This document shows positions 18,280-54,860 of a stretch of DNA of 64,000 bases, in pieces. A program made the position numbers and the translations under genes. Under the pieces are notes generated by a model, which worked only from the letters and a program-made list of their open reading frames with translations, was not told the DNA's origin and searched no databases. The DNA comes from Actinopolymorpha cephalotaxi (GTDB lineage: Bacteria > Actinomycetota > Actinomycetes > Propionibacteriales > Actinopolymorphaceae). The stretch is taken from assembly GCF_013408535.1 (NCBI RefSeq), contig NZ_JACBZA010000001.1, positions 3,990,850-4,054,849 on the forward strand. The letters are read 5' to 3'. The stretch's first letter is position 1. Each line of letters opens with the position of its first letter.

Positions 18280-18440
18280 CCGCTCATGGTGCCAAACCTC
18301 CGTAGGACCCGCCTGACCCACGGCAGGCATTGGGCGATCGGGTGAGTTCGTGGCCACCGTCGATTGTGACCACCAGGCCGGTGAGCGCGTTCGCCCGGGG
18401 TCTCACGTCGGCCTGACCGGTGGCCGGGGAGGATGGCCGG

Positions 18441-18863
18441 ATGACGGCGATTCCACCGGAGGCGGAGGAGGTCGACCTGACCGTGGCGCGGGCGCTGTGG
18501 GCGGCCGGCGATCCGGTGGTCGACGTACGAAGCCCGCAGGAGTACGCCGCCGGCCACGTCGCGGGCGCGGTGAACGTCCCGCTGGACCGGCTGCCGTTCG
18601 TCCTCGACACGCTGCCACCCGGCCAGGTGCTGACGGTGTGCTCGCTCGGCACCCGGTCGCGGCAGGGTGCGGAGCGGCTGGCCCGCCTCGGCCGACCGGC
18701 GGTGTCCCTGCGTGGCGGCACCAAGGCGTGGGCGGCGGCCGGCCTGCCCACCCGTACCGGCTCCGACCCCGGCGAACGCGTCCGCTCACCCCGATCGCGC
18801 CGCCGGTGGTGGCCCTGGCGGCGACCCGGTCGTAGGACCGGCGGGACCGGCGACAACGACTGA
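18441..18863 (+). CDS. Rhodanese-like domain protein
   Basis: A single-domain rhodanese of 140 residues. VVDVRSPQEYAAGHVAGAVN is the substrate-binding N-terminal half, and CSLGTRS with C67 is the persulfide-carrying active loop. It probably transfers sulfur to a thiol acceptor. The C-terminal 35 residues are basic and Trp-rich (SRRRWWPWRRPGRRTGG), which is unusual and may bind nucleic acid or membrane. The ATG at 18441 has GGGGAGGA at about 10 bases; an upstream in-frame GTG (18420) is less likely. Confidence 0.88.
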   Translation: MTAIPPEAEEVDLTVARALWAAGDPVVDVRSPQEYAAGHVAGAVNVPLDRLPFVLDTLPPGQVLTVCSLGTRSRQGAERLARLGRPAVSLRGGTKAWAAAGLPTRTGSDPGERVRSPRSRRRWWPWRRPGRRTGGTGDND

Positions 18864-18916: not shown

Positions 18917-18922
18917 TACGCT
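18917..18922 (+). promoter_or_regulatory. Putative leaderless -10 box for the PRC/MgtE_N gene
   Basis: TACGCT ends 6 bases before the ATG at 18929 with no ribosome site, as expected for a leaderless mRNA. Confidence 0.45.
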
Positions 18923-18928
18923 CGGCTC

Positions 18929-19855
18929 ATGCTGGCCCTCACCGGCGAGACGGGGCAGCCGGTCCGGACCGCCGACGGCACCACCGTCGGCCACCTGCGC
19001 GACCTCACCGCGCGGATCGGCTCACCGCATCCGGTCGTACACCGGTTGCTGGTCGGCACCCGCCACCGGGCCACGCACCTGGTGCCCTGGAGCGAGGTCG
19101 CGTCGTTCGAGCGGTCGGGCGTCCAGTTGCGCGACGCCGAACCGATCTCCGCGTACGCCGACGGCTTCGAGCTCGGCGACGACGAACTCCTGCTGGTACG
19201 CGACGTCCTGGACACCCAGATCGTCGACGTCGTGGGGCACCGGCTGGCCCGGGTGGCCGACGTCCTGCTCACCCGGCTGCCCGACCAGCGCCTCGAGGTC
19301 GCCGCCGTCGACGTCGGGATGGGCGCGGTCTGCCGCCGGCTCGGCCTGCGGCTCCTCGGCGAGCGGCTGCCCGAGCGCGCCGTCGACTGGCGCGACCTGC
19401 ACCTGACGTCGAGCCGCGGGCACCTCGTCCAGCTCGCCACCACGGCTGCCGCGGTGCACCGCCTGGACGCCCGCGGGCTGGCCGAACTCCTCACCCGGCT
19501 CGACGTGGACAGCGCCACCGACGTGCTGCGGACCGTCGGCCCCGAACGCGCGGCGAACGCGGTCGCGGCCACCCATCCCGACGTCGGCGGCCGGCTGATG
19601 CTCGCGCTCGGCTCCGAGGACGCCGGCCGGGTGCTCGACCAGCTTCCCGAGGAGGCCGGACACCACTACCGCCACGTCCTGCGGTCGCGGTCTCCCCTGA
19701 CCAGGCGGCGGTTCTTCCGGCTGCGCGGCTGGCGTACGCACCGGCCGCGGCACCTCGGCCGGCGACCCGGCGGCAACCACGGCAACCACGGCGACCAGCG
19801 CAACCACGGCGACCACGGCGACCAGCGCGGGCCGCGGGAAGACGGCGCGCCGTGA
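18929..19855 (+). CDS. PRC-barrel plus MgtE N-terminal-domain protein, His-rich tail
   Basis: A soluble 308-residue protein with no membrane helix. Residues about 8-60 and 85-140 look like two PRC-barrel-type units (TADGTTVGHLRDL and DTQIVDVVGHRLARVADV). Residues about 165-255 match the superhelical MgtE_N fold (LDARGLAELLTRLDVDSATD, EDAGRVLDQLPEEAG), which in the Mg2+ channel MgtE senses cytosolic Mg2+. No channel domain follows. The tail GGNHGNHGDQRNHGDHGDQR has five His. Its stop overlaps the GTG start of the NRAMP transporter (GTGA), so the two are co-translated; I infer a metal-sensing partner of that transporter. Start ATG at 18929 is preferred over GTG 18908 because of the -10 box. Confidence 0.82.
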   Translation: MLALTGETGQPVRTADGTTVGHLRDLTARIGSPHPVVHRLLVGTRHRATHLVPWSEVASFERSGVQLRDAEPISAYADGFELGDDELLLVRDVLDTQIVDVVGHRLARVADVLLTRLPDQRLEVAAVDVGMGAVCRRLGLRLLGERLPERAVDWRDLHLTSSRGHLVQLATTAAAVHRLDARGLAELLTRLDVDSATDVLRTVGPERAANAVAATHPDVGGRLMLALGSEDAGRVLDQLPEEAGHHYRHVLRSRSPLTRRRFFRLRGWRTHRPRHLGRRPGGNHGNHGDQRNHGDHGDQRGPREDGAP

Positions 19856-21114
19856 CCCCCCGCGTCGGTGACCGGGCCGCGCCGCCCCGGGCCGCCTGGC
19901 GGGTACGCATGCTGGCGCTGGTCTCGGTGCTCGGGCCCGGGCTGCTGGCCGGACTGTCCGACGACGACCCGGCCGGCATCACGACGTACTCCGTGCTCGG
20001 CGCCGACCACGGCTACCAGCTGCTGTGGGTGCTCCTGCTGTCCACCGTCGCGCTGGTCGTCTTCCACAACCTCGGCGCCCGGATGGGCGTGGTCACCGGG
20101 CAGGGCCTGACCGGCCTGATCCGCCAGCGGTACGGCGTGCGCGCGGCCGGGCTCGCCGTCCTCGCCCTGGTGGTGGCGAACGTCGGCACGACCTGCGCGG
20201 AGTTCGCCGGGATCGCGGCCGGCTTCGAGCTGTTCGGCGTCAGCCGGTACGTCTCCGTCCCGCTGGCCGCCGTCGTGGTGTCGCTGCTCGTCCTGCGCGG
20301 CAGCTTCCACCGGGTCGAGCACATCCTGATGGCGCTGGCCACGGTGTTCGTGGCATACGTCGCGGCCGGCCTGCTCGGCCATCCGGACTGGGGGCAGGTC
20401 GCCCGCGGGATGGTGGTGCCGACGATGCCGTTCGACCGGGACGCGCTGCTGATCGCCACCGCCACGGTCGGCACCACGCTCGCGCCGTGGGGCCTGAGCT
20501 TCATCCAGTCCTACGCGGTGGACAAGAAGCTGCGGCCGGCCGACCTGCGCTACGAACGGGTCGACGTGGTGACCGGCGCGGTGCTCACCGGCGTGATCGG
20601 CGCGTTCGTCGTGGTCGCCTGCGCGAGCACCCTGCACGCGAGGGGCGTCCGGATCGACACCGCCGCGGACGCCGCCCGTGCGCTGGAACCGGTCGCCGGT
20701 CAGCTCGCCAGCGGGCTGTTCGGCATCGGACTGATCGGCGCGGGCCTGCTCGCGGCGGCGATCCTGCCGCTGTCGACGGCGTACTCGGTGTGCGAGTTCA
20801 CCGGGTACGAGGCCGCGCTGGACGACAGCATGCGCGACGCCTCCCTGTTCTACCTGACGTACCTGCTGGTCACCGGTGTGGCGGCGGCTGTCGTGCTGGT
20901 GCCGGGCGCGCCGCTGATCCCGATCCTGGTGCTGACGCAGGTGCTGAACGCCGTGCTCCTGCTTCCCCTGCTGGGGTTCATGTACGGCATCTCGCGCGAC
21001 CGTGACCTGATGGGGCCCTACACCGCGACGCCGGGTGTGGCCGGGCTCTACCTCGCCACCATCGCGTTCATCGCCGCGTGTGTGCTCGGCCTGTTCGTGC
21101 TCGGGTTCGGCTGA
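19852..21114 (+). CDS. NRAMP/SLC11-family metal transporter with non-canonical metal-site motifs
   Basis: A 420-residue membrane protein with about 11 helices. The TM1 motif, DPGN in Mn/Fe transporters, reads DPAG (GLSDDDPAGITTYSV); the TM6 MPHN motif reads APWG (TTLAPWGLSFIQSYAVDKK). Loss of the metal-binding Asn and of the soft-metal-selective Met argues against a classical Mn2+/Fe2+ importer. Reported SLC11-related Mg2+ transporters (NRMT) also lack that Met, so Mg2+ is plausible, which fits the co-translated MgtE_N protein. Translation starts at GTG within the upstream stop (GTGA). Fold confident; ion specificity inferred. Confidence 0.88.
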   Translation: MTPRVGDRAAPPRAAWRVRMLALVSVLGPGLLAGLSDDDPAGITTYSVLGADHGYQLLWVLLLSTVALVVFHNLGARMGVVTGQGLTGLIRQRYGVRAAGLAVLALVVANVGTTCAEFAGIAAGFELFGVSRYVSVPLAAVVVSLLVLRGSFHRVEHILMALATVFVAYVAAGLLGHPDWGQVARGMVVPTMPFDRDALLIATATVGTTLAPWGLSFIQSYAVDKKLRPADLRYERVDVVTGAVLTGVIGAFVVVACASTLHARGVRIDTAADAARALEPVAGQLASGLFGIGLIGAGLLAAAILPLSTAYSVCEFTGYEAALDDSMRDASLFYLTYLLVTGVAAAVVLVPGAPLIPILVLTQVLNAVLLLPLLGFMYGISRDRDLMGPYTATPGVAGLYLATIAFIAACVLGLFVLGFG

Positions 21115-21142: not shown

Positions 21143-22372
21143 TCAGCGGGGGTGGACGACGCACCGGAACCCGACGTGGCAGGTCGCGGTGACGGAGTCG
21201 CTCGGCTGCCTGGCCGCCGGGCGGTACCGCAGACAGAACGTCGCCGAGCACAGGTACGAGCCGCCCTTGACCACCCGCACCACCCGGTCGACGTCGTAGC
21301 TGCCGTCCGCCGGCAGTTCGGTGCCCGACGGGTCGTCGGTGGCCGCGCGCTGCCGGGGCAGCGGTCCCGACCGGTCGAGTGGTACGACGAGTGGCACCGG
21401 TACGCAGACCGCCTTGGCCGCGCGGTCCGGCTCCGGCGCGTGGTAGAGGTCGCTGGTCCACTCCCACACGTTGCCGGTCATGTCCAGCAGTCCGTACCCG
21501 TTGGCCGGGAACAGTCCGGTCGGTGACGTTCGCCGGTACGGACCGAGCCCCGCGCGGCGCCACGGGAAGTCGCCCTGCCAGACGTTGGCCATCAGCCGCC
21601 CGCGTGGGCTGAAGTCGTTGCCCCAGGCGTAGACCGCGCCGTCCAGCCCGCCGCGCGCGGCGTACTCCCACTCGGTCTCGGTCGGAAGCTGCTTGCCCGA
21701 CCAGGCGGCGTACGCCTCGGCGTCCTCGTAGGCGACGTGCGTCACCGGGTGGCGCTCACGTCCGTGCGGAGCGCTGACCGGACCCTCGGGCCGGCGCCAG
21801 CACGCGCCCGGAACGTAGGACCACCAGCTACCCCAGTCGGACAGGTCCACCGGCCCCGGCGTGGGACGGAAGACCAGCGAGCCCGGCGTCGCCGGCCGGG
21901 GGTCCACGCCGGAAGCGCTGCCGGAAGCGCGGCCTGCGTCGAGGTGGCGTTCGGCGACCGTGACGTAGCCGGTGGCCCGGACGAACCGGCGGTACTCCGC
22001 CACCGTGACCGGGTGCTCGTCCATCCAGAAGCCGGCCACCTCGACGGTGCGGACGGGGCGCTCCTCGGGGTAGAAGTCGTCGCTGCCCATCGCGAACGTG
22101 CCGCCGGGCACCCACACCATCCGCCTGCCGGGCCGGGCACGGGTCCGGTTTCCGGGCCTGGTCGAGGTCTCGCTGCGATGCCGCCCGCTGGGCTGACTTC
22201 TGGGCTCGCTCCTGGGCTGGCTTCTGGGCTGACTCGTGAGCTCACCGTTGAGCCGGCCCGAGGGCTGACCCGTGAGCTGACCTCTGAGCCGACTCCGGCC
22301 GGAACCGCCTTCCTGGCCGCCGGGCTCGTCTCCGGGGACGACGCCGGACCCCGTCTCGGTGCGAGTGGTCAT
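21143..22372 (-). CDS. Formylglycine-generating enzyme (sulfatase-modifying factor family)
   Basis: A 409-residue protein with an N-terminal low-complexity region (1-85: repeats of QPRSQPRSEPRSQP type) followed by the FGE-sulfatase domain starting VWVPGGTFAMGSDDFYPEE. Both catalytic cysteines of true formylglycine-generating enzymes are present as GGSYLCSATFCLRYR (C375 and C380), so it should bind Cu(I) and oxidise a sulfatase Cys to formylglycine, rather than being an EgtB-type relative. Other family signatures are LPTETEWEYAARGG and GNVWEW. No sulfatase gene lies in the window, so its client is elsewhere. The N-terminal repeats lack a clear signal peptide. It converges on the NRAMP gene with only 28 bases between. 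Confidence 0.9.
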   Translation of the reverse strand: MTTRTETGSGVVPGDEPGGQEGGSGRSRLRGQLTGQPSGRLNGELTSQPRSQPRSEPRSQPSGRHRSETSTRPGNRTRARPGRRMVWVPGGTFAMGSDDFYPEERPVRTVEVAGFWMDEHPVTVAEYRRFVRATGYVTVAERHLDAGRASGSASGVDPRPATPGSLVFRPTPGPVDLSDWGSWWSYVPGACWRRPEGPVSAPHGRERHPVTHVAYEDAEAYAAWSGKQLPTETEWEYAARGGLDGAVYAWGNDFSPRGRLMANVWQGDFPWRRAGLGPYRRTSPTGLFPANGYGLLDMTGNVWEWTSDLYHAPEPDRAAKAVCVPVPLVVPLDRSGPLPRQRAATDDPSGTELPADGSYDVDRVVRVVKGGSYLCSATFCLRYRPAARQPSDSVTATCHVGFRCVVHPR

Positions 22373-54782: not shown

Positions 54783-54831
54783 CGAACAGGTTCTCCTTCC
54801 TGCACCGGCCGGATCAGGTACCGGTGGCAGT

Positions 54832-54860
54832 GCGGGCGAGTACGCGGAGGTCTCGCCCGC
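54832..54860 (-). terminator. Hairpin in the rpoA-rplQ spacer
   Basis: GCGGGCGAG/CTCGCCCGC, a perfect 9-bp stem with an 11-base loop, 48 bases after the rpoA stop. A second pairing GCAGTAC/GTACTGC (54886-54892, 54912-54918) spans the stop itself. Confidence 0.5.

Follow-up and report, generated by a model that had tools for sequence, protein, structure and literature searches.

The window analysed here, a stretch of 64,000 nucleotides from Actinopolymorpha cephalotaxi, carries on its forward strand a gene for a soluble partner protein followed directly by a gene for a carrier of the NRMT group (SLC11/NRAMP-related), the GTG start of the carrier overlapping the stop of the partner so that the four bases GTGA are common to both genes (Table 1). 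An earlier note made from the letters had described a soluble protein with an MgtE_N fold and PRC units whose stop overlaps the start of the carrier, and the open reading frames, the shared GTGA and an AlphaFold2 model all bear this out. The TACGCT box in front of the partner suggests a leaderless transcript start. No M-box or other riboswitch precedes the pair at Rfam gathering thresholds; the sole RNA family matched in the window is an L17 ribosomal protein leader (54800-54860, reverse strand, 55.4 bits).

Table 1. Genes, domains and sequence elements of the partner-carrier pair and its flanks
Feature	Position in window	Strand	Details
Rhodanese-domain protein gene	18420-18863	+	Upstream flank of the pair
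Possible -10 element TACGCT	18917-18922	+	Six bases 5' of the partner ATG; same in A. rutila
Partner gene, 308 aa soluble protein	18929-19855	+	PRC-PRC-MgtE_N-like, no CBS; ATG 18929, stop 19853-19855
First PRC barrel	18929-19156	+	Residues about 1-76; AlphaFold2 model, fold search
Second PRC barrel	19181-19411	+	Residues about 85-161; highest conservation within the partner
MgtE_N-like helical domain	19436-19696	+	Residues about 170-256; lacks the conserved acidic pattern of relatives
Basic-aromatic C-terminal motif	19703-19747	+	RRRFFRLRGWRTHRP; form common to the CBS-less clade
His/Asp-rich tail	19775-19825	+	Genus-specific; predicted disordered
NRMT (SLC11/NRAMP-related) carrier gene, 420 aa	19852-21114	+	GTG 19852, stop 21112-21114
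TM1 site D39-P-A-G42	19966-19977	+	NRMT DxxG; EleNRMT D55-G58
TM6 site T208-T-L-A-P-W213	20473-20490	+	NRMT TxxA
FGE-sulfatase-domain protein gene	21143-22372	-	Downstream flank of the pair

Judged by its sequence, the carrier is an ordinary NRMT. It matches the Pfam Nramp family at 7.9e-86, and its closest solved structure is EleNRMT (7qia; PMC8806188), which it resembles in fold and metal-site residues and matches at 1.9e-93, the next structure following at 5.1e-28; a score of 317 bits against 7qia, compared with at most 102 bits against any other NRAMP structure, places it nearer to NRMT than to MntH. In NRMTs the motifs DPGN and MPH give way to a published consensus of DxxG-TxxA/T (PMC8806188), and the carrier has D39-PA-G42 and T208-TL-A211 at these sites. 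Both proton-accepting histidines of TM6b are gone (W213 stands at the first position and I218 at the second), the TM3 glutamate E117 is kept, and D39, G42, E117, T208, A211 and W213 are the commonest residues at their positions among 67 aligned NRMTs. The earlier note was therefore right that DPGN and MPHN are absent, but its word 'atypical' does not hold, since DPAG and TTLAPW fit the NRMT consensus. Its view that the locus pairs an SLC11-type carrier, from the Mg2+-transporting branch, with a soluble partner of its own is sustained by this assignment together with the pairing described below.

Placing the domains of the partner required a fold search, as phmmer with its sequence against the PDB gave no match and the Pfam scores fell short of their cut-offs for both MgtE_N (23.6 against 25.9 bits) and PRC (20.2 against 21.2 bits). 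In an AlphaFold2 model built on a 14-sequence alignment (mean pLDDT 78), residues 1-161 resemble the tandem PRC protein CdpB (8qzo_A, Z 11.6) and residues 170-256 both FliG and the MgtE N domain (Z about 9-10), the tail from residue 267 onward being disordered in the model. Membership of the PRC fold follows from the match to 8qzo_A and from Pfam PRC scores of 20-40 bits in several related CBS-less partners, weaker or missing in L056 and L057. The likeness to CdpB1/CdpB2 and to the reaction-centre H subunit is one of fold and tandem arrangement, whereas their functions are unrelated and identity is low (13%). The helical domain likewise resembles the N domain of the MgtE channel (TtMgtE, 2zy9 / 2yvy; Z about 10), but the partner has no plug helix, channel or CBS domain, the last by both Pfam and our own HMM, and carries two PRC barrels in addition.

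Comparison with A. rutila, the nearest named relative and a member of this genus, gives a dN/dS of 0.09 for the carrier and 0.27 for the whole partner, within which the PRC pair (0.18) and the helical part (0.28) are more constrained than the tail (0.43); both therefore look like maintained genes, the tail being under the loosest constraint. A basic-aromatic C-terminal segment, RRRFFRLRGWR in the window's protein, is present in each of the CBS-less partners (10/10) and may dock on the membrane or on the carrier. These observations bear on two alternatives. A partner that is vestigial in this lineage and heading for loss would account for the progressive loss of CBS and a helical domain shortened across the clade, yet the PRC pair and the helical part are under purifying selection, the gene overlap is retained and a similar C-terminal motif recurs in every member, so we consider this most improbable. 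Scarcely better placed is the idea that the partner chaperones or buffers metal with its His/Asp-rich tail (NHGNHGDQRNHGDHGDQ), although a chaperone role is among the alternatives raised by Shin et al. (PMC4072509): the tail that the earlier note pointed out does exist, but it is an addition confined to this genus, predicted to be disordered and under the weakest constraint of any part.

The gene pair itself has been known since 2014, contrary to the earlier note, which had taken it to be undescribed. Shin et al. (2014) reported that a homologue of the cytoplasmic N-terminal domain of MgtE adjoins most nrmT genes, suggested feedback regulation or a chaperone role for this MgtE-N-like fragment, and tested one pair (PMC4072509). 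Their pairs, from C. acetobutylicum (Ca_c0685, Ca_c3329) and A. capsulatum, share with the window the carrier family and an adjacent, co-directional, upstream partner related to MgtE_N; the window differs in that its partner has no CBS domain, the start of its carrier overlaps the stop, and no M-box is present, an element found upstream of only a subset of such pairs and not required for pairing. The main text of that paper makes no mention of PRC or CBS domains, and the structural paper on EleNRMT (Ramanadane et al. 2022; PMC8806188) makes none of a partner protein. In literature whose coverage was incomplete, we found no paper linking the PRC barrel with MgtE or with NRAMP, and no description of the CBS-less variant, which is weak evidence given that coverage.

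Conservation of the gene pair had been set beforehand as a check, and it is near complete: 78 of the 80 NRMTs found in the phylum from the carrier alone have an adjacent partner. A search of 296 genomes with the carrier alone returned 60 matches of at least 250 bits, and among the MgtE_N matches listed, 42 of these 60 carriers are preceded on their own strand, at a distance of 177-1307 bases, by a Pfam MgtE_N domain. The remaining 18 were examined with our own HMMs, partner domains being called from matches in six frames of the fetched loci. At 13 of them the partner is a PRC-only gene downstream; G287 has a full partner, G233 a CBS-less one and G398 one that a contig end truncates, so that 16 of the 18 are paired, and the same HMMs found no adjacent partner at the carriers of G253 and G316. 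This brings the count to 58 of 60, and a class-level search added 20 further carriers, every one with a partner (20/20). Of six genomes of the genus, the two that have one gene also have the other, and on an Alicyclobacillus (Bacillota) plasmid the gene order is the same, with 10 bases between the end of a CBS-domain protein and the NRMT. The two NRMTs that have no neighbouring partner (L060, L061) are sisters with 61% identity to that of the window, and no fusion of partner and carrier in one frame occurs in the loci examined. None of 24 weaker NRAMPs has an MgtE_N domain upstream among the matches listed, a weak control given that such a partner domain set adjoins a weaker NRAMP at L082. A scan of genome contigs with the partner matched only A. 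rutila, its patterns being too specific.

The architecture of the partner was surveyed at 67 loci, 62 found by the carrier and 5 by the partner, and a partner is present at 65 of them. The commonest form is PRC-PRC-MgtE_N-CBS (33 loci); six loci add an MgtE-like membrane domain to this, and three more add both that domain and a downstream PRC-only gene. Ten, including the window, have the PRC pair and a short MgtE_N-like part with no CBS, thirteen have only a PRC gene, located downstream of the NRMT (L069-L071, L107-L116), and two have no partner. The PRC pair went undetected in L036 and L073, where the partner is cut short by the end of the fetched stretch or of the contig (that of L073 holds only its CBS end). 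These counts make the PRC pair the near-constant element of the partner, with the MgtE_N, CBS and membrane parts variable, and in literature of incomplete coverage we found no report of this, nor of a degenerate MgtE channel in some NRMT partners.

Such degenerate MgtE-like membrane domains are seen in L065 (1451-3286), L066 (1450-3252), L035-L038, L042, L043 and L046, and suggest that the partner descended from a whole MgtE channel. In L042, L043 and L046 the PRC-only gene downstream of the NRMT is additional to the upstream partner. The membrane domain of L066 can be recognised as related to MgtE (Pfam 2.8e-9, PDB 4.2e-6); in its alignment the SDVTG stretch, where we read TtMgtE D432 (site Mg1) to lie, has no acidic residue, so that a dead MgtE channel is likely. 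Another form is found in the EleNRMT lineage (L041, L045, L048, L051, L067, L068), where the partner lies upstream and ends in a single hydrophobic membrane helix. The L051 carrier is 96% identical to EleNRMT, which was studied without a partner, whereas its relatives at 91-96% have an upstream PRC-MgtE_N-CBS protein with that C-terminal helix. Proteins with a PRC pair also occur at L074 (2877-3335) and L075 (3082-3540), where they score 99-103 bits and neither an NRMT nor a DUF1003 gene was detected close by.

All ten members of the window's clade lack CBS. A single change on the carrier tree accounts for these ten loci (support 87/77; the same in 82% of bootstrap trees), so they probably form one clade, with moderate support, and as full partners stand on both sides of the tree, loss of CBS is the simpler reading. 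In MgtE, the N domain, CBS and plug helix are bridged by Mg2+ ions at sites to which residues 59, 91, 95, 226, 247 and 250 contribute; mutating these residues impairs closure, and D91 with D247 forms site Mg4, needed for closure (PMC5882242). Partners with CBS keep an acidic residue, where covered, at the TtMgtE-equivalent positions 59, 91, 95, 246, 247 and 250, though not at 226, and among them the equivalents of D91, D246 and D247 are invariant where covered, whereas the CBS-less clade either lacks or does not conserve these. Of the acidic residues at sites Mg4-Mg7, those equivalent to D226, D247 and D250 are missing along with CBS in the window's protein. The equivalents of D91, D95 and E59 appear unconserved in the clade, in an N-domain register that its helical repeats leave uncertain by about one repeat; the missing CBS is unaffected by this, and the loss of D91 and D95 is accordingly the less certain of the two.

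With no CBS and no conserved acid at the Mg2+ sites, the window's partner probably does not sense Mg2+ in the manner of MgtE. The earlier note had cast it as a Mg2+ sensor gating the carrier through its MgtE_N domain, and the MgtE_N-like fold of the model, the strict pairing, the NRMT-type carrier and the feedback regulation proposed for the family (PMC4072509) would all agree with that role. MgtE sensing, however, needs Mg2+ to bridge the N domain, CBS and plug helix (PMC5882242), and without the CBS and the acidic residues that relatives share with MgtE the protein is a poor candidate, so that we regard such gating as unlikely here.

We think it rather probable that the two genes form a system of a type already known, in which a cytosolic partner is dedicated to an NRMT, and that the MgtE-type unit of this partner has been cut back in the window's lineage. 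The carrier, of SLC11 fold, would import Mg2+, and probably Mn2+ as well, without coupling to protons. The partner would most likely dock on it through its tandem PRC barrels and basic-aromatic C-terminal segment, and in most relatives an MgtE-type MgtE_N-CBS unit may throttle the carrier at high cytosolic Mg2+. Where that unit has been reduced, with neither CBS nor conserved Mg2+-site residues, the remaining role could be that of a docking, assembly or stability subunit, or of a responder to another signal. Against this two-gene reading stands the A. capsulatum (Acidobacterium) pair, in which co-expression of the fragment gave no better Mg2+ rescue and nrmT behaved as a Mn2+ transporter, rescuing Mn2+ uptake and Mg2+ only weakly (PMC4072509).

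The same result is one argument for taking the pair as a Mn2+ uptake system with a partner that is Mn2+-responsive or independent of Mg2+. EleNRMT transports both Mg2+ and Mn2+ (PMC8806188), no M-box precedes the pair, and three CorA proteins in the genome could serve for Mg2+; an MgtE membrane domain was not found in this genome. On the other side, the carrier keeps Ala in place of the transition-metal Met, and a second NRAMP with DPGN and MPH, encoded elsewhere in the same genome, would serve for Mn2+. We consider a Mn2+ system rather unlikely, though the most credible of the alternatives to an NRMT with a cut-back partner.

More broadly, and as a tentative suggestion that we hold plausible rather than probable, NRMTs may generally be two-part, with a near-obligatory tandem PRC-barrel subunit and with MgtE-type sensing (MgtE_N-CBS, in some cases accompanied by a dead MgtE channel) as an add-on that the window's lineage has lost; the regulatory module would serve DUF1003 membrane proteins as well. 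The EleNRMT structure was obtained from the carrier alone although close relatives have an adjacent partner gene, and regulation of this class of Mg2+ transporter may thus have been missed. In the natural series of partners (dead channel, one membrane helix, CBS, no CBS, PRC only) docking is set apart from sensing, and the role of the MgtE-like fragment, a question raised in 2014, becomes directly testable; the PRC protein as constant partner of NRMTs is the part that deserves specialist attention.

PRC-MgtE_N-CBS proteins that lie away from an NRAMP-type carrier have an adjacent DUF1003 gene in eight of eight genomes, and in literature of incomplete coverage we found no paper linking DUF1003 with MgtE. 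The genome of the window holds such a case: a second PRC-MgtE_N-CBS protein (L081:2630-4739; C1, about 676.6-678.7 kb, reverse strand) adjoins a DUF1003 membrane protein, with mrp, tatB and corA close by.
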